From contig JAIELF010000037.1 of assembly GCA_019753235.1 (NCBI GenBank), positions 1 through 64,000 on the forward strand: a stretch of DNA of 64,000 nt, read 5' to 3'. Shown piece by piece: positions 23,932-36,506 of the stretch. The translations under genes were made by a program, and so were the position numbers. How positions within the stretch are numbered: position 1 is the first letter of the stretch; each line of letters starts with the position of its first letter. The notes beneath the pieces are model-generated. The model was not told the DNA's origin. It did no database searches and was given only the letters and a program-made list of their open reading frames with translations. Source of the DNA: a bacterium. GTDB taxonomy: Bacteria; Planctomycetota; Planctomycetia; Kolteriales; Kolteriaceae.

Positions 23932-25515
23932 ATGACGCAGCCGGTCTTGATCCGCGCCGAAAACGTTTCTAAGCGCTTTAGCCGAAGCGTCCGTCACACC
24001 GTTTGGAATACCTTTCAAGATATTGCTCAACAGTTGACGGGGACGGCCATCGTCCCGAAGCTTCGACCGGGAGAATTCTGGGCGCTCCAGGATATCTCCT
24101 TCAAGGTTCGAAAAGCGGAGTCGGTCGCGGTGATTGGCGACAACGGCGCCGGCAAAAGTACGCTCATCAAACTTCTCATGCGGCGAATGCTCCCGACGTC
24201 GGGGATCGTCGAAACCACGGGCGCCATCAGCGCCCTCACGGTGCTGGGTCTCGGCTTCGATCCCGTGATGAGCGGCCGCGAGAACATCATTCTCAATGCA
24301 GCCACACTGGGGCTTTCGCGATCTCAAACGCTCAAGGTGCTCGACGACATCATCGACTTTGCCGAGCTTCGCGAGTTCATCGATACACCGATTCAAACTT
24401 ACAGTTCCGGAATGAAGTCTCGGCTTGGGTATGCCGTGGCGGCCCATGTTAATCCCGACGTGCTGCTGCTCGATGAAGTCCTTGCGGTCGGCGATATTCG
24501 CTTTCGGCGCAAGTGTCGTCGTCACATTAAGAACTTCATCGACGCAGGGGGGACGACGCTGCTTGTGACGCATGACTTGCAAGCGGTGCAAACGATCTGC
24601 ACCCGCTGCCTCGTGCTGGAAAAGGGTCGGCTTGTTTTCGATGGTTCCCCAACCGAGGGGATTCATTTTTATCTCGAGTCGCAGCTCGATGCCTCGGAAG
24701 ACGATCCTCACGGAGCCGAGAAACTCCGTGTGCCGGCCCTCCCCATTCCGCTGCTCCCTGATGATCCTCCCAAGGTCCCCGCCGTCGAGCCTATTAGAGA
24801 AGTACCTATTTCCGAAGCGGTCGACCTGCCGACCGAGATTCGAACCGAGATACCGAACGATTCGACTTTTGAGAGCACGTCGACTCCGGATGAGCCTGAG
24901 GTCGAACCTTTGATCGCGGAACCGACGGCGGATGATCGTCCGGAAACGGACCTTGTTGCAGTGTCGGCCGAGCCTTTGCCATTTCCTGATGAGGATTTGC
25001 CGAGCGAAGAGGACCAGCTCGCGCGACCGGATCCCGAGCCCGTGATGGTAGAGGAAGAGATTCCGGGCATGGCGAAGGGGTCGGTCGTGATCGAATCTCT
25101 TTCCATCGAGGCTTTGGATGGCAAGCATCTTCGGACAGCTCACCCGGTCGAACTGGTGATGCGGTATCGCTCGGAGATCCGCATCCCGCATGTTGCTTGG
25201 GGGTTTTCGATCGTCACCGAGGATTCTCTTGTCAGTATCGGGACCTTTATTGAAGGTTACTCCGCCCGAAAGTACGACCTGTTGCCGGGCAGGCATACGT
25301 TCCGAATTCGTGTCGAACGATTTCCATTGCACGCGGGGAGATACGGATTGAGGGCGGGGATCGGCGAGGTCGATACGGGGGCGGCGATCGTGCAAAAAGG
25401 CTGGGAGGACGAGCCGATCATTTTTACCGTCCGAAGCGATCCCTCTCCAGAGAACAGCATGCATGCGGGCATGAATGATCTCATCGTTTTGGAAGGACAA
25501 CCGAGTGCCGATTGA
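23932..25515 (+). CDS. wzt: Polysaccharide ABC exporter ATPase (Wzt-like) with acidic linker and C-terminal carbohydrate domain
   Basis: This 527-residue protein couples ATP hydrolysis to export of an O-antigen-like or teichoic-acid-like polymer. The ATPase domain (1-250) has Walker A GDNGAGKST (69-77), signature YSSGMKSRLG, Walker B DVLLLDEVLAVGD and the late histidine VTHD. It is followed by an unusual linker of about 120 residues (about 255-375) very rich in E, P and D, and by a C-terminal beta-sandwich (about 380-527) resembling the Wzt carbohydrate-binding domain that recognises the polymer end. The matching permease gene is convergent (53-base gap) rather than in the same operon. The sequence continues to a natural stop. 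Confidence 0.88.
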   Translation: MTQPVLIRAENVSKRFSRSVRHTVWNTFQDIAQQLTGTAIVPKLRPGEFWALQDISFKVRKAESVAVIGDNGAGKSTLIKLLMRRMLPTSGIVETTGAISALTVLGLGFDPVMSGRENIILNAATLGLSRSQTLKVLDDIIDFAELREFIDTPIQTYSSGMKSRLGYAVAAHVNPDVLLLDEVLAVGDIRFRRKCRRHIKNFIDAGGTTLLVTHDLQAVQTICTRCLVLEKGRLVFDGSPTEGIHFYLESQLDASEDDPHGAEKLRVPALPIPLLPDDPPKVPAVEPIREVPISEAVDLPTEIRTEIPNDSTFESTSTPDEPEVEPLIAEPTADDRPETDLVAVSAEPLPFPDEDLPSEEDQLARPDPEPVMVEEEIPGMAKGSVVIESLSIEALDGKHLRTAHPVELVMRYRSEIRIPHVAWGFSIVTEDSLVSIGTFIEGYSARKYDLLPGRHTFRIRVERFPLHAGRYGLRAGIGEVDTGAAIVQKGWEDEPIIFTVRSDPSPENSMHAGMNDLIVLEGQPSAD

Positions 25516-25567: not shown

Positions 25568-26440
25568 TCACACGTTGGCTTGATCCAGCAGCAACGGCAA
25601 GGTCGAGCGAAAAAAGACGCAGCCGAACACAAACACGATCATCGTCACGAAGACCATGATGGCTAGGCCGATCGGCATCGTGATTGCTCCCGTGGTGAGA
25701 AGTTCGCGCGTGGCCGACAGTAGGGGCGTAACCGGGTTGATTCGAACGATCCACGCAGCCCAGCCCTCGCGCGGGACCGGCACGATGACCGGTGTCAGGA
25801 ACAACCAGAACGTGGTAACGGGCGTGATGGCGGCCCCTACATCGCGATAAAAAATATTAAGCGGCGCGAGCACCAGGCCGATCCCCATTCCGAATAAAAC
25901 CAGCAAAAGGAGTGTCACGGGCGCGAACAGGATCCAGGGGGTGAATGGGATTTGGTACCACAGCATCGCGAATGCGATCAGGATCAGCTTAACACCAAAC
26001 CCGAACAAGATTTCACCGAACTTCGCGAGGATGATGGCTTCCGAGGGAACCGAACTGCGGGCGATCGTCCCGAGCTCGGCCCGTAACCCCATGATCGGAG
26101 CCTGAATCGATTCGACGAATGTTTGCCAAAGCATCAGGCTGATTAAGACGAACGGGGCATACGGTAGTGCCATGTCTTTAGGGAGTGTGATGATCCGAGC
26201 ATGTTCGATCATCGTCGCCCAAGCGGCAATCACGAGCGCGGGAAGAAACGCCAACAGAACGCCGAGCAAGCTTTGTCGGTATTCCCTCGCGATGTCGCGA
26301 GCGAAGATCTCGCGGGCCAAATGCCGACTGCGCCACATGTCGTACGCCATCGGTCGAAGCAGGCCAAGCCAACGATTCACCAGCCCGCGGATTGTGAGAC
26401 CGGCCGGCCGCGCCGTCGTTGTTGCGGTGCCGGTTTTCAT
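25568..26440 (-). CDS. wzm: Polysaccharide ABC exporter permease (Wzm-like)
   Basis: This 290-residue integral membrane protein belongs to the ABC-2 type permease family. It has an N-terminal cytosolic helix with RDIAREYRQSLLG (near residue 48), six predicted membrane segments (near 58-78, 92-110, 142-165, 172-195, 203-222 and 258-280), and the conserved NIFYRDVG element near 205. It forms the membrane channel with the Wzt-like ATPase encoded convergently next door. The start ATG at 26440 has TCCCTC (GAGGGA) just before it on the minus strand. Confidence 0.88.
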   Translation of the reverse strand: MKTGTATTTARPAGLTIRGLVNRWLGLLRPMAYDMWRSRHLAREIFARDIAREYRQSLLGVLLAFLPALVIAAWATMIEHARIITLPKDMALPYAPFVLISLMLWQTFVESIQAPIMGLRAELGTIARSSVPSEAIILAKFGEILFGFGVKLILIAFAMLWYQIPFTPWILFAPVTLLLLVLFGMGIGLVLAPLNIFYRDVGAAITPVTTFWLFLTPVIVPVPREGWAAWIVRINPVTPLLSATRELLTTGAITMPIGLAIMVFVTMIVFVFGCVFFRSTLPLLLDQANV

Positions 26441-27039: not shown

Positions 27040-29664
27040 ATGGTGAACGCGGAATTGATCGTCGATGCAAAGTTGCGAAAAGCTTATGAGAAGGATGGCT
27101 ACGTGGTGGCCCCGCTTCTTGAGCCGGCCGATGTCGCCGAGTTGTCGGCCCTGTACGAGTCATTCCCCTCAGGGATGTCGACAGGCTTTTACACGACGCT
27201 TTGGAGCGAAGACCCCAAGTATCGCCAAGCGGTTCGGCAAGGAGTGCAACGGGTTCTCGCTCGCCGATTGCCCGGCGTGCTGAAGGATGGTCGAGTCATT
27301 CTCTGTCAACTCGCGGTCAAGCAAGCGGGCGGAGGGGATAGCACTTGCCCCATGCATTGCGATTGGTCGTTTACTGACGAATCGATTCATCAGGGGATTT
27401 CTCTTTGGATTCCGCTCATCGATATCGAGCCCGAAGTCGGACCGTTGCGGGTGGTGCCTGGATCGCACCGGGTCTATCGGCGAATCCGCCCCAATCAGCC
27501 TCAAGAGGTCCACTACAATGTCTTCGACGAGATACTTCCCGAACTCGAAGCCCACCGAGCCCGCGAGGTATTCATGCGGGCCGGGGAAGCCGTCATCTAC
27601 GACGGCGCGATCCTGCATGGCTCGCGTGGAAATCGATCAACCCGCGACCGCGTGGCAGTGGTCGCCGTCGTCGTGCCGAGAGAGGCTCGGCTGTATCACT
27701 ACTGGCAAGAGGATCTTCGTTTCGCGGAGGTCTTCGAAGTCGATGAAGAGTTCCTCGCGACCGAGGTCCGCTGGGGACGCCGACCCGTGGGAAAGCCGGT
27801 CGTCGAGGTGATCGATCTTCCCTCCCGGTCCCGGCCACTCACCTTGGAGGAGTTCGATCGCGAAGTCGCGCTTCCCAGCACGAAGAGGCTTAGTCTGTCG
27901 GCACTCGATCCTTGGCGAAGCGTGACCTTTAATGACCTGGTTCAATCCGAACTCGATTATCTCGGCTCGTCGAAACAGCCGCTTTTGGATATGTCGGCCA
28001 TCGAAACACTTCGCGCGGTGCTCGAGCCCTACTGGTCGTTTGGTGTCCGAGAGAAAATGCTCGATCTGCCTGAGGCGATCGATGCGGTCCATCGTCTCGT
28101 TGGGCCGACCGTTTCGAAACTTTTCCCGGAGTATGAAATCTACCGGGCCAGTTTCTTTACCAATCGCGCCGGCACGAATGATGAAAAGTCAGGTCTGATT
28201 CACGATGAAGCGATCGTTGATGGGACCAGGCATCGGCCGATCAGCCTGCTGATTCCGCTGGGGGGTATCGACGGGCCGGGCGTTCTGTCCGTCCTCGATG
28301 GAAGCCATCGAACCAGTCGACGCGCCACCGGCTCGATCGTCTCGAGCCCCAAGATCGACGTTGACCCGATCATCTGGAGTCGGCTCACCCGAACGATTCC
28401 ATTGTTGCTCGGCGAAGCATTCATCTACGACGGTCGGCTCCTGCACTATCTTCCTCCGAGCACATCGACCTCTCCCTTCTTTGGGATTCGATGTCAATGT
28501 TTTCCTAAGGGAGCAATGCATCGCCGGTATCGCCCGCTTCCAGCGGGTCGAAGCGATCACTGGGAAGTTTCCCTTTCAAGTCCGTCGGATGCTAGTTCGG
28601 CCACGGATAATGCGGACGCCCTCAATGCGAGCAGAGAGATCGTTCGGCCCGATTCGCCGATCTCCGCAACAGTGATCGCCGAGGGGCTCAAGTTTGCCCG
28701 TTCGATGGAAGAGCCCTTTGTTGCGCCGCTGGCGTTGGGTGAGGTAGAATGGTCTGTTGTGACTCGACAGGAGAAAGACGTGATGCCGACGACGCCCCCG
28801 ACGACGCCCAAATGGGAAGAATCTGCCGTTCGCCGAATCTTCCACGATGATTCGCTGGAGAGGGAGTTCCGCCACGCGGGGTATGTCGTGATCCCGCTGC
28901 TCGACGACGATACCACGGCTAAGCTTCTCGAGTTTTTCTATGCGACGAGCCCACCCAATATCGCCGGCTTCCACGGGACGATGTACCACAAAGATCGCGA
29001 CTACCGCGTTCGGGTGGATGGAATGCTTCGGCCAGCACTGGAGCAGGCGGTGGCCAAGTATCTCATCAATTATCGCTGCGTGATGTGCAACTTCATGGTG
29101 AAAGAGCCAGGCGAGCCGGCCAGCGAGATGCCATTGCATCTGGACTGGTCGTTCGTGAAGGAGCCCGCTTTGCGGAGTGTCCATATCTGGTGCCCGCTGG
29201 TGAACGTCGATCATGAGAACGGGAACCTCGCGGTCACTCCAGGAACGCATCATCTAGGTGATCCCGTGCGAGCTTTTGCGGACGATATTCCATTTAGAGA
29301 ACAGATCGAACTGCTTCGGGACCGTTTCACGCGGGAAATTCCGATGAAGGCGGGAATGGCGGTTTTGTTTGATGGCGGTTTACTCCATTCTTCGCCGCCA
29401 AACATGAGTGCCGACCGAAGAGTCACGGCACAAGCGATCGGTATCCCGATCGAGTCGCCGGTCTATCATTCGTGGCGCGCGACCCCGACACAGGTCGAGA
29501 CGTTTCAATTGCCCGACGAGTTCTTCTTCGACTATGTGCTGCACCAGAGGCCGCAAAGTATCGAACCGGCCGAGGTGATCGAGTATGTCGCTCGGCAATT
29601 GACCGCCGACGAGTTGGCGGTGCTCGAAAAATATCAGCCTGCCGAGCCCGCAATGAAGAAGTGA
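27040..29664 (+). CDS. Protein of three tandem phytanoyl-CoA dioxygenase (PhyH)-like modules
   Basis: This 874-residue protein contains three successive Fe(II)/2-oxoglutarate dioxygenase-like modules of the PhyH family. Module 1 (about 10-290) has HCDWSF with H106 and D108 and distal H193. Module 2 (about 300-545) is divergent: HDEA with H388 and E390 (HxE rather than HxD) and distal H469. Module 3 (about 582-870) has HLDWSF with H700 and D702 and distal H783. PhyH enzymes hydroxylate small molecules or lipids; the substrate is unknown. The start at ATG 27040 (or GTG 27043) has GGGAGG close before it. In frame, ATG 28783 at the start of module 3 is preceded by AGGAG (28769-28773), so module 3 could also be made alone. 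Confidence 0.85.
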   Translation: MVNAELIVDAKLRKAYEKDGYVVAPLLEPADVAELSALYESFPSGMSTGFYTTLWSEDPKYRQAVRQGVQRVLARRLPGVLKDGRVILCQLAVKQAGGGDSTCPMHCDWSFTDESIHQGISLWIPLIDIEPEVGPLRVVPGSHRVYRRIRPNQPQEVHYNVFDEILPELEAHRAREVFMRAGEAVIYDGAILHGSRGNRSTRDRVAVVAVVVPREARLYHYWQEDLRFAEVFEVDEEFLATEVRWGRRPVGKPVVEVIDLPSRSRPLTLEEFDREVALPSTKRLSLSALDPWRSVTFNDLVQSELDYLGSSKQPLLDMSAIETLRAVLEPYWSFGVREKMLDLPEAIDAVHRLVGPTVSKLFPEYEIYRASFFTNRAGTNDEKSGLIHDEAIVDGTRHRPISLLIPLGGIDGPGVLSVLDGSHRTSRRATGSIVSSPKIDVDPIIWSRLTRTIPLLLGEAFIYDGRLLHYLPPSTSTSPFFGIRCQCFPKGAMHRRYRPLPAGRSDHWEVSLSSPSDASSATDNADALNASREIVRPDSPISATVIAEGLKFARSMEEPFVAPLALGEVEWSVVTRQEKDVMPTTPPTTPKWEESAVRRIFHDDSLEREFRHAGYVVIPLLDDDTTAKLLEFFYATSPPNIAGFHGTMYHKDRDYRVRVDGMLRPALEQAVAKYLINYRCVMCNFMVKEPGEPASEMPLHLDWSFVKEPALRSVHIWCPLVNVDHENGNLAVTPGTHHLGDPVRAFADDIPFREQIELLRDRFTREIPMKAGMAVLFDGGLLHSSPPNMSADRRVTAQAIGIPIESPVYHSWRATPTQVETFQLPDEFFFDYVLHQRPQSIEPAEVIEYVARQLTADELAVLEKYQPAEPAMKK
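28769..28785 (+). promoter_or_regulatory. Possible internal ribosome-binding site and start
   Basis: AGGAG at 28769-28773 is followed after 9 bases by an in-frame ATG at 28783, exactly at the boundary before the third PhyH module. This could allow separate translation of a 293-residue PhyH protein, or it could be a relic of an earlier separate gene. Confidence 0.45.
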
Positions 29665-29738: not shown

Positions 29739-31316
29739 TTACTTCTTCTCGGCAATATCGATGGACGAGAAGTCCATGGAAGCGGCCGACCCTGCTAATG
29801 CAACGTAGAGTCGGCAGGGGCCTCCTTCGATCGCCTGGAATTCATGAGAAGTTTCTTTCCAGTCGGAGGAGAGTTCAACAGATTGAAAAAGACCCATGCC
29901 CCCCCATGGCGGGGCGTTTTGTGAGGTGACAATGCGCACCGGTCGGGCAGTATTCGCTCGGGCCCGGAGAGTTACCAAGTAGTTCTTCCCCTTTTGTAAC
30001 GTCACGTTGTCCCGCAGCAACATCACCTTCCAGTCTTTAGCCGGGTCGGCATCCGGAACCTGGACACGAACGAAGTCGGGCTCGCCGGATCGCATGGAAA
30101 TCGAAGACGCATTTCCCTGCTCGGTGATGAGTTTCCATCCCGGCAGAGGGACCGCCGAATTCGATGCTACCACGGGCGCGACCGGTGCCGAGGGTGCCGG
30201 TGGCTTGGGCATTTCGACAGCAGCAGGTGGCTTCGGCAACGCAGCCGGCGCGGGGGGGGCAACGGGCGCGGGTGGTGTGGTGCTTGCCACGACAGGGAGT
30301 TGGCCGGCCGCCGGGGAGTAACGGACATCGGCCAGAGTGACTTGTCCCGATGGGCCCCCTACCTGGAACGTCAACCGAGCGTTTGTGTCCCCTTTTCTCG
30401 CGATGGCCGAGAAGCGATAGCTCTTCCAATCGTTCGAAAGCTCGGCTCGCTGGTCGAGGCCCATCGATTGCCAAGGCTCATGATTCTCCTGAAAGCGAAC
30501 CGAAATCGTTCTCGGCGAAGTCGACTTCGCGCGGAACGAGACTTCCATCGGCTGATCCTTGGAGAGCGAGAATCCAGGCCGATTGAACTCGATCTCCCAT
30601 GGATTGATTTCTTCGCCCGGGGGAATGTCGATGGTGACCGCATTGGGTTCCGGGGCGGGCGACACCTTGCCCAAACCCTCGCGAGCCACAAAAAAGGCCC
30701 AATCCGTTTTCAGGTCCGCCACGGGCAAATCGAGGGGCGAGACGTTTGCCGGCGCGGTTGGCGACGGACTTGCCGGGAGTGTTGTCTGGTTCGCGTTGGC
30801 GGTTTGACGATAGAGATCGCTCCGCTTCATGACGACAAACTGCCCCTGATCGTTGAGGGGCTGAATCTTATACCGCAAAACGAAGAACGGCTGCAGCAGC
30901 ATCAGGGCAAGGACGATCGCAACGCGGTTGGTAAAGCTCAATGACCAATAAGGCAACCAAGCAATCACCGGAAGCCACAGACTTGCCAAAGCAAAAATGA
31001 CTCCTGGGACGGTCCGCTGCCAAAGAGGTTCGACGGTCGTCCAGAACGTCAAGCAAACACCACCGATCCACGAGGCGAGGAGGACCAATACCATGAAGGC
31101 ATTTCCTTTCCCCGAGTTCCCCCGCGCGCCGATGTCTTGCACCAAGAGCGCGATCGAGATGATGGATAGAAGCGTCAAGCCAATCATGACGCCGTCAATC
31201 TCTTTGGCCATGAGAAACCGAAGCGATTGATCGACATACCAAGGGGCAAGCGCGAAGACGGTCAACAGAACGGAGAACAGAAGTCCGAAGAAGCTTGCCA
31301 GCATAGCGATCCCCAT
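29739..31316 (-). CDS. Membrane protein with two carbohydrate-binding-like domains
   Basis: This 525-residue protein has about five transmembrane segments in the first 155 residues (near 5-25, 42-60, 74-92, 106-125, 132-148), followed by a soluble part with two repeated beta-sandwich domains: one near 210-340 (ending VTLADVRYSP) and one near 405-525 (ending MDFSSIDI). Both have the sequence style of CBM4_9-like carbohydrate-binding modules, including NDWKSYRF and SDWKETSHEF elements. The two are joined by a proline- and alanine-rich linker of about 60 residues. It is convergent with the triple-PhyH gene. A start at the fifth codon (ATG at 31304) is also possible. The ligand is unknown. Confidence 0.65.
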   Translation of the reverse strand: MGIAMLASFFGLLFSVLLTVFALAPWYVDQSLRFLMAKEIDGVMIGLTLLSIISIALLVQDIGARGNSGKGNAFMVLVLLASWIGGVCLTFWTTVEPLWQRTVPGVIFALASLWLPVIAWLPYWSLSFTNRVAIVLALMLLQPFFVLRYKIQPLNDQGQFVVMKRSDLYRQTANANQTTLPASPSPTAPANVSPLDLPVADLKTDWAFFVAREGLGKVSPAPEPNAVTIDIPPGEEINPWEIEFNRPGFSLSKDQPMEVSFRAKSTSPRTISVRFQENHEPWQSMGLDQRAELSNDWKSYRFSAIARKGDTNARLTFQVGGPSGQVTLADVRYSPAAGQLPVVASTTPPAPVAPPAPAALPKPPAAVEMPKPPAPSAPVAPVVASNSAVPLPGWKLITEQGNASSISMRSGEPDFVRVQVPDADPAKDWKVMLLRDNVTLQKGKNYLVTLRARANTARPVRIVTSQNAPPWGGMGLFQSVELSSDWKETSHEFQAIEGGPCRLYVALAGSAASMDFSSIDIAEKK

Positions 31317-32003
31317 CCCGTGCGAAGATATGCCCTTTGGGGGCTTGTCGATCGGCCTTGCTTGCCCTGAGGCCAGGAATTTTCTCCATGCCGATCGGCC
31401 AATCGATTCCGTCGATTCCTCCGCTTTATGATTACGAAATCACAGCGACCATGTGGGCCCCCGCGGGAATCCACGCCCCCAAATTCGGAGAGAAGAGCCT
31501 TTCTCGCTGGCCGTCTCATCAGGTTCGCCCGGCATGAAGGGATCCCCGATTGATTTTCATCCCGATTCCATTGTCTCAGAAAAAGATAGGGCTCGACGTC
31601 ACAGGCGACTCGCCAGGCTCCATCGGCGAGGGTTTTCTCCAGAACGCCGATGTTCCCCATTCAAATCTTGGCTGATCCGGTTCGAATATGAAGCCGGTTC
31701 GTCAAGGGATCTTCAGACAAAATCCCCCAGAACCCATTGACACATTTCTGGGACAGATCTATCGCCCCCTTCGTCATACCAGCTTTGCCTCGCATCATGT
31801 CGGTCGCGCTTTGCTCGTCTCCTTGGGAAGACGATGTGGATGAAGCGCCCATTGACGAATCATGAAAGTGACGACGAGGACCGGATCGTCCTCCCTTCTG
31901 TGTCGGCATCCGCTCGTTCAAGAGGTGCCGTCCGCAGGAGAGCCTGGCACAGAGAACTTGGCTGGCCAGCGGAAAAGACGACCTGCGTTTTGGGGTGATT
32001 TCG
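31317..32003. other. Intergenic region without a supported gene
   Basis: This 687-base region precedes the secretin gene. Open frames on both strands lack ribosome-binding sites and family features. It should carry the promoters of the divergent membrane-protein and secretin genes, but none stands out. Confidence 0.4.
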
Positions 32004-35000
32004 ATGAAGGAGAACACGTTGCGAGCGGCACAGCGAACAACATGGGCGATTCGCCTATGCATTTGCCTGGTAGCGACGTCGACAACGGCTTGGTCGGGTG
32101 ACCAACCGAAGGTGTCCTCGTCTGTCGAACCCGGAAAGGCTTTGGCCGAGGGTATTCGACTCTATCGCCGAGGTGAATTCGAAAACGCTTCGGAGTCATT
32201 TGCCCTGGCGCAGGCACAGGCGGGCAAGCTGTCGGCACAAGATCAGAATGTGCTGTCGGAATACTCCGACCGAGCCACTCGTGCCATGGTCGAACGAAGC
32301 CAGGCTCGCATGGAGATCAACGAAGCCGAGGCGTCGCTTCAGGCTCGCGAGTTCGAGAAAGCTCGCTCGCTGTTGACACGGGCTTCGTCGAATCGTTTTC
32401 TGGCCCCCGGCGACCTTGAGAAAGTCAAACAGTTAGAACAAACACTGACCGCGTCGCCCGACAAGAAGGAATCGTGGTCATCCCGTTTTCGGTTCTTCCC
32501 CCGTAAGCAGTCAGCGGGCAGCACCGCTCCCGAACCGGTGGCCGTCCCCACCTCGCCGATCACGCCGGTCGGTGCCGAGGTTGCTCGTCCCGCGACGCCA
32601 GGCAAGTTGGCCTCGGGCGACGCTCAGCAAATCCTTGCCGAGGGACGTCGATTCTACAAGCGGGGGTTGACTGCGCAGGCGGAACGATTCGCTCAAGCGG
32701 CAGCCGAGGCGCAGGTCGCTTGGGATCCCGCGGGGGACAGCCCCGAACGATTGCTCGCGGATATCCGCTCTCAAAAATCCACCGGGGCGATGCCCAAGAC
32801 GAATCCAGCTGCGGACAAGGCCGAGTCGGCAACGAACAAGCCCGATCGAGCCGAGGCGCTCGCGATTCTGGCCGAGGGACGCCGACAACTTCAGGCGGGC
32901 AATCTGGATGCCGCCAAAGCCTCCGCAGTGAGGGTCTACTCGATGAACCTCGGTTTGACCCCTGCCGACGGCGATACCCCCGAGCAGCTTTTCACTGACT
33001 ACAAACGAGCAATCACCAAGCAGACTCAAGGGGGCAACGTCGCCTCGCCCGCTCCGATGAACACATCGGCCCCGGCCGGCACAAGTTCCACCAGCCCGGC
33101 TTCACCAACGACGGTCGTCGACAAGAGTGATGCGGTCCCGAGCGAGGTTCCCGATCAAGAGATGGCCGATAAGTATCGTTCGTCGTCCGACAAGAAGGAC
33201 GACGCTCGCAAGTTGGTCTCGCAAGCTCGTGCCGCCCTGACCCGAGGGGACCACGCGACGGCCATTCAGTTGGCGAAGAAGGCCCAGGCGACCGGGATCA
33301 AGTTCGCGGAGGACGAAGATTCGCCCGGAATGATCTTTGAAGCTCACGAGGCGATTCGCGTTCGCGAAGAACAGCGTCGCAAGGCCCAGGCGACGGCTGC
33401 CAAGGGACAAGAGGCTCGTCAGCTCGTCGCGCAGGCTCATCGCGTGATGGAAGCCGGCGACTATGATCAAGCCATGATGATGGCGCAGAAGGCGCTCCAG
33501 ATGGATGCCGTCTACAAGCCGAGCGAGTTGACTCCTGGACAACTGATGGTCGAAATCGAACGCCGATCAGCCCAGGCATCTTTGGAAGAAGCTCAGGCAC
33601 GAGAAAAGGCCCGGGCCATGCTTGCCGAGCAGTCCAACTTGTCCCGACAGGCTCCGAGTCAGTCTTCGAGTCGGCCGGCAACACGACCGGAAGGACGACC
33701 GGCGGCGCCGGCCGTCGATCCCGCGGTTCAGCCTGCTGGATTCTCTGCCCCCGTTGGTCCGGTGCCGACCGCGATTCCGATGGCGAAGGGGCCCGCGCCG
33801 ACGCCATCCTCGATGACGAAGCCGACCACCGAACGAATTCCGACGGTCATCCAGGCGGCCGGTCCTGGGAAGGGGCCGGGTCTGCTGGATGCCGGCATCA
33901 ACGCGATGGGTCGCGGCGACTACAGCCAAGCTCGAACTTACTTCGAAGAGGCGGCGAAGTTCCCTGAGTCGCTCAACGATATTCAGAAGCAACGATTGCA
34001 GGACCTTTCCTCCGAAGTCCTGACTCGCGTGAAGAACGCGCCGGCAGAAAAGCCCGGCAAGCGATCGATCTCTGATGAGCAGACCTTCGCGGGCCTGCAA
34101 GAGAAAGACCCCGCGAAGGGGGAGGTCCCGACTACCGAGGTCGGCAAGGACGACATCGCTGCCGAGAAGGCTCGCCAGCAGATCCTGCTCCAGAAGATGA
34201 AGCAGGACGTCATTGAAGCCCTTGAACAAGCCAACTCTCAGCTCCACGACAATCCGGACCGCGCGATCGAGACGCTTCGGTCGTCATTGGAAACGGTCAA
34301 GGCCAGTGGCCTGGAACCGAATCAAACAGGCGCCCTGATCAATCGACTGGAACAGCAGATCCGACAGGCACAGCGTTCGCGACAAGAGTTTGTCGTCCGA
34401 ACGATCCAAGAGGATCAGCAAGAAGCATCGCGAGATGCTCGCCAGCGATCTCTTCAAGCAGAGGTGCAAAAGCAAAACACCATCAAACAGCTCTCGAACC
34501 GTTACAACGCCTTGATGGATGAAGGGAGCTACGCGGAAGCCGAGGCAGTGGCCTACCAAATCACGGAAGTCGATCCGAACGAACCTTTCGGCGTGGCCGC
34601 CCTCTACCGAGCACAGCTTTCGCGACGGTACTCGTTCGTGGAAGACTTGGAATGGAAAAAGCAAAAAGGGTTTTGGGATACCCTCAGCACGGTCGAGGCA
34701 AGCTCGGTTCCGATCCCCGATGACGACGAAATTCGCTTTCCCGACCCCAAGCGTTGGGAAGAACTGACGAAGCGTCGTGAGAAATACAAGACGCCGACCT
34801 TGGAATCGAAGTCCGAGGCGACCCTCAAGATTGAGAAAGCTCTCACGAAACCGATCACGATCGACTTCAAGGAGACTCCTCTCACGCAAGTGGTCGAGAT
34901 CTTGAAGGAGTTCGTCGGCGTCAACGTGGTGCTGGACTTGAACGGCTTGGATATTGCCGGCGTCGATCCCGATGAACCGGTCACGTTGAGCCTCAGCGAC

Positions 35001-36506
35001 ATTCCTTTGAAGAGTGCGCTCAAGCTGCTGCTAGAGCCATTGGAATTGACGTACCTGATTAAGAACGACGTTCTGCTCATCACGGATGCCGAGGACACGG
35101 GTACCGAATTGGTGACGAAGGTCTATCCGGTGGCCGACCTGGTCATTCCGGTGACCAACTTCGCCGGCGGTGGTGTCGGTGCAGGTGGTATCGGCGGCGG
35201 TGGCGGCCTGGGGGCCGGTGGTCTTGGTGGCGGCGGCGGTGGCGGCCTGGGCGGCGGCGGTGGTGGCATCGGCGGCGGCGGCGGTGGGAACGGACAGTTC
35301 GGCGATATCTCCGGAGCGGTCATCAACCTCATCCGAAGCACGGTCGAACCCGATAGCTGGGAAGAGAACGGCGGCGTCGGAACCATCGAATACTTCCAGC
35401 CCAATCGAACGTTCGTCGTCACGCAGACGCAGAAGGTTCACGAAGCACTCGAAGACCTCTTTGCTCAGCTTCGTCGACTGCAGGACTTGCAGGTCTCCGT
35501 CGAAGTTCGATTCATCAACTGTAGCGATGCCTTCTTCGAACGTATCGGGATCGATTTCGACGTCTCGATCGACAACAACAACGATGAATACATCATTCAG
35601 CAAACCAACGGCCAACTCGGGCCTCCCGGTGTACCACCTCTGCCCGACGGTGGTAACTTGGGTACCACCGACGGTAACCACGTCCGAGGCGTGACCATCG
35701 GTCGAGGACCGACCGGGGCTCGTACAGGTAACTACAACATCCCCATCACGCAGTCCTCGTTCGCGGCAGCGACGGTGCCGGCACTGGCGGGTCTGGGGGC
35801 AACCAACTTGGGCGGGACCAATTTCGGCATCGCCTTCCTCAACGATATCGATGTCTTCCTCCTGCTCGAAGCGGTACAGGGAGACCAGCGATCGAACACG
35901 ATGCAAGCCCCGAAGGTCATGCTCTTCAACGGGCAGACCGCCCGCGTGAGCGTGCAGAGCCTGGTGCCGTTCGTCACCGATGTGACCCCCGTCGTTGCGG
36001 CTGGTTCGGTCACGTTCGATCCGACGGTCACCGCGGTCCCCGACGGAACCAACTTGCAGGTCCAGGCGGTAGTGTCGGCCGACCGCCGATTCGTTCGACT
36101 GACGCTGGTGCCGATTCTCCAGCAGGTGGAATCGATCACCAACGTTCGAACCGTCAACGTTCAGGGAGCGGCCGGCGGCGGTGGCGGTATCGTCGGCGGT
36201 GGGGGAAGCGTCGCCCAGGCGACGATTCAGTTGCCGATCGTTTCCCAGGTTTTCGTTCTCACGACGGTCAGTGTCCCAGACGGCGGAACCGTTCTTCTGG
36301 GTGGTCTTAAAAATCACCGGGAAGCCCGCAATGAATACGGAACGCCTGTCCTGAGCAAACTTCCGTACATCAGCCGACTCTTTAAGAATGCGGCATCGGC
36401 CCGAGTGACATCCAGCCAGATGTTGCTCGTGACGCCGCGAATCGTCATCCTCGAAGAAGAGGAAGAAGATTTGGGAGTTTCCACCTCGACGAGCGGCATC
36501 CGCTAA
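32004..36506 (+). CDS. Large secretin with TPR-like periplasmic N-terminal region
   Basis: This 1500-residue protein is an outer-membrane secretin of the type II/IV (GspD/PilQ) family with an exceptional N-terminal extension. A signal peptide (AIRLCICLVATSTTAWS) is followed by roughly 900 residues of repeated helix-pair units of TPR type (ILAEGRRFYKRG, ILAEGRRQLQAG, LVSQARAALTRG, LVAQAHRVMEAG), separated by proline/serine-rich linkers. Then comes a STN/secretin_N-like domain (about 945-1045: TPLTQVVEILKEFVGVNVV), a glycine-rich stretch of about 45 residues (35163-35300) and the secretin domain (about 1145-1480, with VPDGGTVLLGG). ATG 32004 is preceded by GGGGTGA. No other type II or type IV pilus genes are adjacent. 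Confidence 0.88.
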   Translation: MKENTLRAAQRTTWAIRLCICLVATSTTAWSGDQPKVSSSVEPGKALAEGIRLYRRGEFENASESFALAQAQAGKLSAQDQNVLSEYSDRATRAMVERSQARMEINEAEASLQAREFEKARSLLTRASSNRFLAPGDLEKVKQLEQTLTASPDKKESWSSRFRFFPRKQSAGSTAPEPVAVPTSPITPVGAEVARPATPGKLASGDAQQILAEGRRFYKRGLTAQAERFAQAAAEAQVAWDPAGDSPERLLADIRSQKSTGAMPKTNPAADKAESATNKPDRAEALAILAEGRRQLQAGNLDAAKASAVRVYSMNLGLTPADGDTPEQLFTDYKRAITKQTQGGNVASPAPMNTSAPAGTSSTSPASPTTVVDKSDAVPSEVPDQEMADKYRSSSDKKDDARKLVSQARAALTRGDHATAIQLAKKAQATGIKFAEDEDSPGMIFEAHEAIRVREEQRRKAQATAAKGQEARQLVAQAHRVMEAGDYDQAMMMAQKALQMDAVYKPSELTPGQLMVEIERRSAQASLEEAQAREKARAMLAEQSNLSRQAPSQSSSRPATRPEGRPAAPAVDPAVQPAGFSAPVGPVPTAIPMAKGPAPTPSSMTKPTTERIPTVIQAAGPGKGPGLLDAGINAMGRGDYSQARTYFEEAAKFPESLNDIQKQRLQDLSSEVLTRVKNAPAEKPGKRSISDEQTFAGLQEKDPAKGEVPTTEVGKDDIAAEKARQQILLQKMKQDVIEALEQANSQLHDNPDRAIETLRSSLETVKASGLEPNQTGALINRLEQQIRQAQRSRQEFVVRTIQEDQQEASRDARQRSLQAEVQKQNTIKQLSNRYNALMDEGSYAEAEAVAYQITEVDPNEPFGVAALYRAQLSRRYSFVEDLEWKKQKGFWDTLSTVEASSVPIPDDDEIRFPDPKRWEELTKRREKYKTPTLESKSEATLKIEKALTKPITIDFKETPLTQVVEILKEFVGVNVVLDLNGLDIAGVDPDEPVTLSLSDIPLKSALKLLLEPLELTYLIKNDVLLITDAEDTGTELVTKVYPVADLVIPVTNFAGGGVGAGGIGGGGGLGAGGLGGGGGGGLGGGGGGIGGGGGGNGQFGDISGAVINLIRSTVEPDSWEENGGVGTIEYFQPNRTFVVTQTQKVHEALEDLFAQLRRLQDLQVSVEVRFINCSDAFFERIGIDFDVSIDNNNDEYIIQQTNGQLGPPGVPPLPDGGNLGTTDGNHVRGVTIGRGPTGARTGNYNIPITQSSFAAATVPALAGLGATNLGGTNFGIAFLNDIDVFLLLEAVQGDQRSNTMQAPKVMLFNGQTARVSVQSLVPFVTDVTPVVAAGSVTFDPTVTAVPDGTNLQVQAVVSADRRFVRLTLVPILQQVESITNVRTVNVQGAAGGGGGIVGGGGSVAQATIQLPIVSQVFVLTTVSVPDGGTVLLGGLKNHREARNEYGTPVLSKLPYISRLFKNAASARVTSSQMLLVTPRIVILEEEEEDLGVSTSTSGIR

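Follow-up and report, generated by a model that had tools for sequence, protein, structure and literature searches.

A single uninterrupted frame in the window (the whole stretch of 64,000 nucleotides that was analysed) encodes an 874-aa protein with three PhyH-type modules at positions 27040-29664. This three-module PhyH protein is real and unusual, and it is explained by the fusion of genes from a known fold family. Its first and third modules have intact active sites, the middle one has lost its site, and the gene lies next to a Wzm/Wzt exporter. Rows of related oxygenase genes recur beside such exporters in other genomes. The protein is better understood as part of this broader, apparently undescribed array-exporter pattern, of which it is a rare fused form.

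The features discussed in the text are as follows.

23932..25515, plus strand: Wzt-like ABC exporter ATPase with Wzt C-terminal domain (Pfam ABC_tran and Wzt_C; NCBIfam relatives from teichoic acid/galactan export)
25568..26440, minus strand: Wzm-like ABC-2 exporter permease (Pfam ABC2_membrane, E 1.8e-10; array-linked permeases match down to 5e-19)
27040..27891, plus strand: module 1, catalytic-type PhyH Fe(II)/2-oxoglutarate (2OG) dioxygenase domain, residues 1-284 (PF05721, E 3.8e-21)
27892..28593, plus strand: module 2, divergent PhyH-fold domain, predicted to be non-catalytic (blastp, profile, AlphaFold2, Foldseek, and alignments)
28594..28782, plus strand: linker from module 2 to module 3, mostly of low pLDDT and probably flexible, with codon usage still in frame
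28769-28785, plus strand: AGGAG-9-ATG (AGGAG 28769-28773, ATG 28783), candidate internal start for module 3 alone (293 aa)
28783..29661, plus strand: module 3, catalytic-type PhyH domain (PF05721, E 2.1e-18)
29739..31316, minus strand: CBM_4_9 carbohydrate-binding-domain protein, used as a synteny marker with the sister genome and given no mechanistic part
31995..36506, plus strand: secretin-family protein of 1503 aa, also a synteny marker with the sister genome

The three-module protein and its origin

The original prediction of three PhyH modules in one frame was borne out by the open frame, by the mutual homology of the modules, and by a profile of close relatives that finds all three in the one ORF with 379, 57, and 400 bits for modules 1, 2, and 3. 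In blastp, module 1 matches module 3 with 31% identity over 264 aa (E 1.5e-40), and module 2 matches module 1 at E 2e-10 and module 3 at E 4e-10; in the aligned parts, protein identity among the modules is ~24-31%. Modules 1 and 3 reach 76.8 and 67.8 bits with Pfam PF05721 (PhyH; curated cut-off 22), and a Pfam search of module 2 alone gave no match. The in-frame codon score is 0.18, 0.16, and 0.15 for the three modules, and the other two forward frames are negative. The probability that 293 codons stay free of stops by chance is ~2e-5. We looked for fewer than three dioxygenase folds and for a stop or frameshift that splits the frame, and neither was seen; the double-stranded beta-helix is assigned to module 2 by its model and structural matches, to module 3 by a well-folded domain in the model of modules 2 and 3, and to module 1 by homology only.

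No second three-module PhyH ORF was found in ~860 genomes and at 57 further loci; because the class- and phylum-wide searches with the whole protein scored two candidates per genome, distant relatives are probably under-counted and another such ORF could have escaped. A whole-protein scan of genome contigs returned no match. Near two arrays, open frames of 944 and 989 aa were considered as three-module genes and rejected, as their DNA shows only one- and two-module ORFs.

The nearest relative with the gene is a sister genome of the same family (G001), which carries modules 1 and 3 as two separate, adjacent ORFs and has no module 2 between them. Identity to these stand-alone genes is 47% for module 1 and 62% for module 3, and both orthologous pairs have a tree support of 1.0. 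Downstream, as in the window, come homologues of the CBM protein and of the 1503-aa secretin. Because the syntenic genes for modules 1 and 3 are separate neighbours in G001, the window protein is taken to be a fusion of tandem PhyH genes, as had been suggested. Judged from the sequences, the window gene is a fused tandem pair plus a third, divergent copy.

Some further observations concern these two genomes. A second tandem PhyH pair of G001 (L034:7946-9948) is of the HxD type in both genes and has a radical-SAM/B12-binding protein and a YfhO-like membrane protein nearby. The source genome has, on contig C31, a 206-aa frame with the C-terminal half of a PhyH module only (L035:2048-2665), likely a relic, which by eye resembles the second gene of this other G001 pair (L034:7946-8818). 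The 1503-aa secretin has a long N-terminal extension, and its G001 homologue has a long Gly/Met-rich repeat.

An internal start at module 3 had also been proposed. The AGGAG-9-ATG motif is indeed present; comparable motifs precede ~1.0% of the ATGs in the window (19/1866), and among 113 internal in-frame ATGs of large genes only the one at 28783 has it. The stand-alone orthologue of module 3 in G001 begins with AGGAG-8-ATG. However, module 3 of the window has ~14 extra residues ahead of the homologous part, so that the positions of the two starts do not correspond exactly. As the motif precedes only ~1% of ATGs, a retained start is plausible, and the motif is suggestive of internal initiation, by which additional module 3 might be produced.

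Exporter neighbours and PhyH arrays in other genomes

The predicted polysaccharide exporter adjoins the PhyH gene, which fits the surroundings of other arrays; Wzt and Wzm both lie upstream, with Wzm divergent on the opposite strand. A tblastn search of the window for the array-type CMAS-like methyltransferase gave no match. PhyH-Wzm linkage is weak in the lineage of the window, because G001 has its Wzm homologue and its PhyH pair on different contigs, and the window is not a compact glycan cluster, because unrelated housekeeping genes are also present. A phage-defence role was considered and dropped, as there was no PADLOC match.

Using scan patterns from a three-row alignment (window module 3, G001-3, and G001-1), we found 57 loci, mainly in Bacteroidota and also in Verrucomicrobiota, Lysobacterales, and Sphingomonas; as the patterns came from the subfamily of the window, the counts apply to these loci and not to bacteria at large. 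An array was called at 55 loci, 38 of which have an unbroken row of five or six PhyH modules on the same strand, in many cases with a two-module fusion among them. A Wzm-like permease lies immediately upstream at 32 of these 55 loci, a CMAS-like methyltransferase is present at 22 and a Wzt-type ATPase at 16, and at least one of the three at 41. The profile of relatives detects ~40 two-module ORFs. The claim that no PhyH array had been described holds for the literature searched, where nothing specific was found on PhyH with Wzm/Wzt, on PhyH arrays, or on HxN dioxygenases, but genomes of Bacteroidota commonly carry tandem arrays and two-module fusions, which are also found in Planctomycetota, Verrucomicrobiota, and Pseudomonadota.

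In a tree of 315 modules, orthologous groups recur from locus to locus. The HxN group is represented at 51 loci; the usual fusion contributes two groups, its second half (46) and its first half (30); and three more groups, with 42-43 each, consist mainly of single genes. As some members are joined in one genome but stand alone in another, fusion happens repeatedly within a conserved array. The HxN paralogue, found in nearly every array, has HQNW or HENW for H-x-D and keeps the second His and the 2OG Arg. The 52 HxN modules, including L048:5064-5999, form one clade across phyla (support 0.97).

The array clusters, with the order Wzm - PhyH array - methyltransferase - Wzt, share with the window tandem homologous PhyH modules, fusion of modules, and ABC-2 glycan-exporter neighbours. 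A full member was defined by at least four PhyH modules in succession with an HxN paralogue, by adjacent Wzm and Wzt, and by a linked CMAS-like methyltransferase. The window has Wzm and Wzt side by side, but its three modules share a single ORF, Wzm has the opposite orientation, there is no methyltransferase, and no HxN paralogue was found in its source genome. For these reasons, we regard the window as a relative of the array system and not as a full member. The planctomycete G369 is intermediate between the two. It has a 632-aa two-module fusion (L041:7497-9392) in the gene order Wzm-Wzt-methyltransferase-PhyHx2-sulfotransferase, with glycosyltransferases nearby. Like the window, it combines fused PhyH beside Wzm/Wzt with one altered site (HQN). 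In G369, however, there are two modules, and the altered one is the first and keeps the Arg, whereas in the window there are three, and the altered one is in the middle and has no Arg. A Methylomagnum plasmid has the order Wzm-Wzt-methyltransferase-PhyH with a single PhyH.

Other loci may be recorded here. The array clusters are L047-L102 and L121-L126, and some Bacteroidota and Verrucomicrobia have several of them in one genome; L123, for example, is a six-module second array on a contig of 5 kb. One array and its Wzt gene are directly followed by a WelO5-type halogenase (L072:9899-10804; Pfam E 2e-56). Two cyanobacterial plasmid proteins (L043:8989-13782 and L045:7177-10503) have one PhyH of the window's subfamily fused to glycosyltransferases, or to a methyltransferase and a UbiA-type prenyltransferase, which are further glycan or lipid links. 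A tandem PhyH origin of these large proteins was rejected, since each has one PhyH domain only.

It could be argued that the substrate of the oxygenases is a small metabolite that has nothing to do with export and that Wzm/Wzt are beside them in the window by coincidence. Many small molecules serve as substrates of PhyH enzymes, the neighbours in the window are mixed, and the separation of PhyH and Wzm in G001 and the orientation of Wzm in the window fit this explanation. We nevertheless hold it to be somewhat unlikely, as relatives recur beside Wzm/Wzt in several phyla. Because rows of oxygenases recur beside sugar-polymer exporters, a role in decorating a cell-surface glycan is probable. Among solved structures, those nearest by profile or fold include the sugar-acting enzymes SnoK/SnoN, EvdO2, AviO1, and HygX. 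Together with the exporter association, these relatives favour a glycan or a lipid-linked sugar as the substrate.

Active sites and the state of module 2

Module 1: The profile alignment places a complete site at H106, D108, and H193, with the 2OG Arg.

Module 3: The site is likewise complete, with H700, D702, H783, and R794. The HxD...H motifs predicted for modules 1 and 3 are thus confirmed by the alignment columns, and the 2OG Arg is intact in both.

Module 2: Ile387 occupies the metal-His column, D389 is in the Asp column, H469 is kept, and Phe480 is in the column of the 2OG Arg. The columns were assigned from the profile alignment and from a MAFFT alignment, both gap-free and with conserved flanks. 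Among 350 modules aligned on one profile and read at the first metal His, the acid, the second metal His, and the 2OG Arg, 292 are H-D-H-R and 52 are H-N-H-R, a handful are fragments, and I-D-H-F occurs in module 2 of the window only. The 2OG Arg is present in every other module with the column filled (>340). The replacement of Arg by Phe480, which the original description had missed, is a firmer sign than the loss of the His that module 2 would not use 2-oxoglutarate.

The fold of module 2 appears to be retained. AlphaFold2 predicts a confident jelly-roll core (mean pLDDT 76.6; 112 residues at or above 90), and Foldseek with this model returns EvdO2, TlxIJ, MysH, and SnoK at E 2e-10 to 2e-9. 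The model of modules 2 and 3 has a pTM of 0.52 and no confident domain packing, based on a shallow alignment; as the predicted arrangement is not fixed, it does not support a rigid channel.

Module 2 could also be a decaying remnant that contributes nothing, in which case the protein would amount to two independent oxygenases. In the tree, it sits on a very long branch with weak placement, so that its parent copy is not nameable, and it combines lost catalytic residues with absence from the G001 locus. The truncated PhyH frame in the same genome (G000:C31) implies that such loss does happen. A neutral copy, however, would be expected to gain stops or to lose its core, whereas the frame of module 2 is fully open, its codon signature is normal, and its predicted core is confident. 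We therefore consider decay unlikely.

That all three modules are active is very improbable. The middle module had been described as HxE, and the letters H388-D389-E390 exist, followed by a second His; a slip of one residue would restore HxE, with H388/E390 and H469 as metal ligands and a different anchor for 2-oxoglutarate. The gap-free alignments over conserved flanks, however, put Ile387 at the metal His, and Phe480 stands where every other module with a filled column has Arg. As the HxE reading needs this slip against both alignments, it is probably a one-residue misreading, and module 2 looks non-catalytic rather than like an HxE enzyme.

An assembly or sequencing artefact is hardly credible. 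The source genome consists of 88 contigs, and the searches gave no other three-module ORF; but modules that share ~24-31% identity are unlikely to be mis-joined as repeats, both junctions would have to lose stops, and two-module fusions occur in ~40 other ORFs.

Proposed function and meaning

The single-domain PhyH oxygenases SnoK, SnoN, EvdO2, MysH, and PHYH share their fold, metal triad, and 2OG Arg with modules 1 and 3 and their fold with module 2, but the window protein has three domains per chain, one without a complete site. A parallel for module 2 is TlxI/TlxJ of talaromyolide biosynthesis, in which a PhyH-type protein without the 2OG Arg (TlxI) is the auxiliary subunit of TlxJ and raises its efficiency ~80-fold, from 0.02 to 1.63 per min per uM (PMC12141560). 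As in the window, a subunit lacking this Arg stands beside a competent one. TlxI and TlxJ are fungal meroterpenoid enzymes on separate chains, whereas the window protein is bacterial and covalent and has two competent modules. By analogy, TlxI may serve as a precedent for a partner function of module 2, not as proof.

We propose that modules 1 and 3 would oxidise C-H bonds, each with its own bound Fe(II) and 2-oxoglutarate. They would most likely act in sequence, in the cytoplasm, on a sugar or a lipid-linked glycan, and the Wzm/Wzt ABC exporter encoded next to them would then export the oxidised glycan. Module 2 would keep the fold without the site and act as a non-catalytic partner or spacer in the chain, like TlxI beside TlxJ. 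For this combined reading, an in-frame fusion with two modules active on the exported glycan and a non-catalytic third, we see about even chances. More tentatively, about six PhyH paralogues in series, one of them with a conserved HxN metal site, may tailor a polymer or a lipid-linked sugar for Wzm/Wzt, and the window protein may be their fused relative, a covalent relay with a non-catalytic centre.

If this is true, rows of non-haem iron enzymes would oxidise an entire class of surface glycans or glycolipids ahead of their export, and no paper on this chemistry was found in the literature searched. The HxN paralogue would be a natural, conserved 2OG-oxygenase metal site without the carboxylate; to our knowledge, such sites are rare, halogenases (HxA/HxG) aside. 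The three-module protein would provide a single-chain test of an inactive oxygenase copy supporting active ones.
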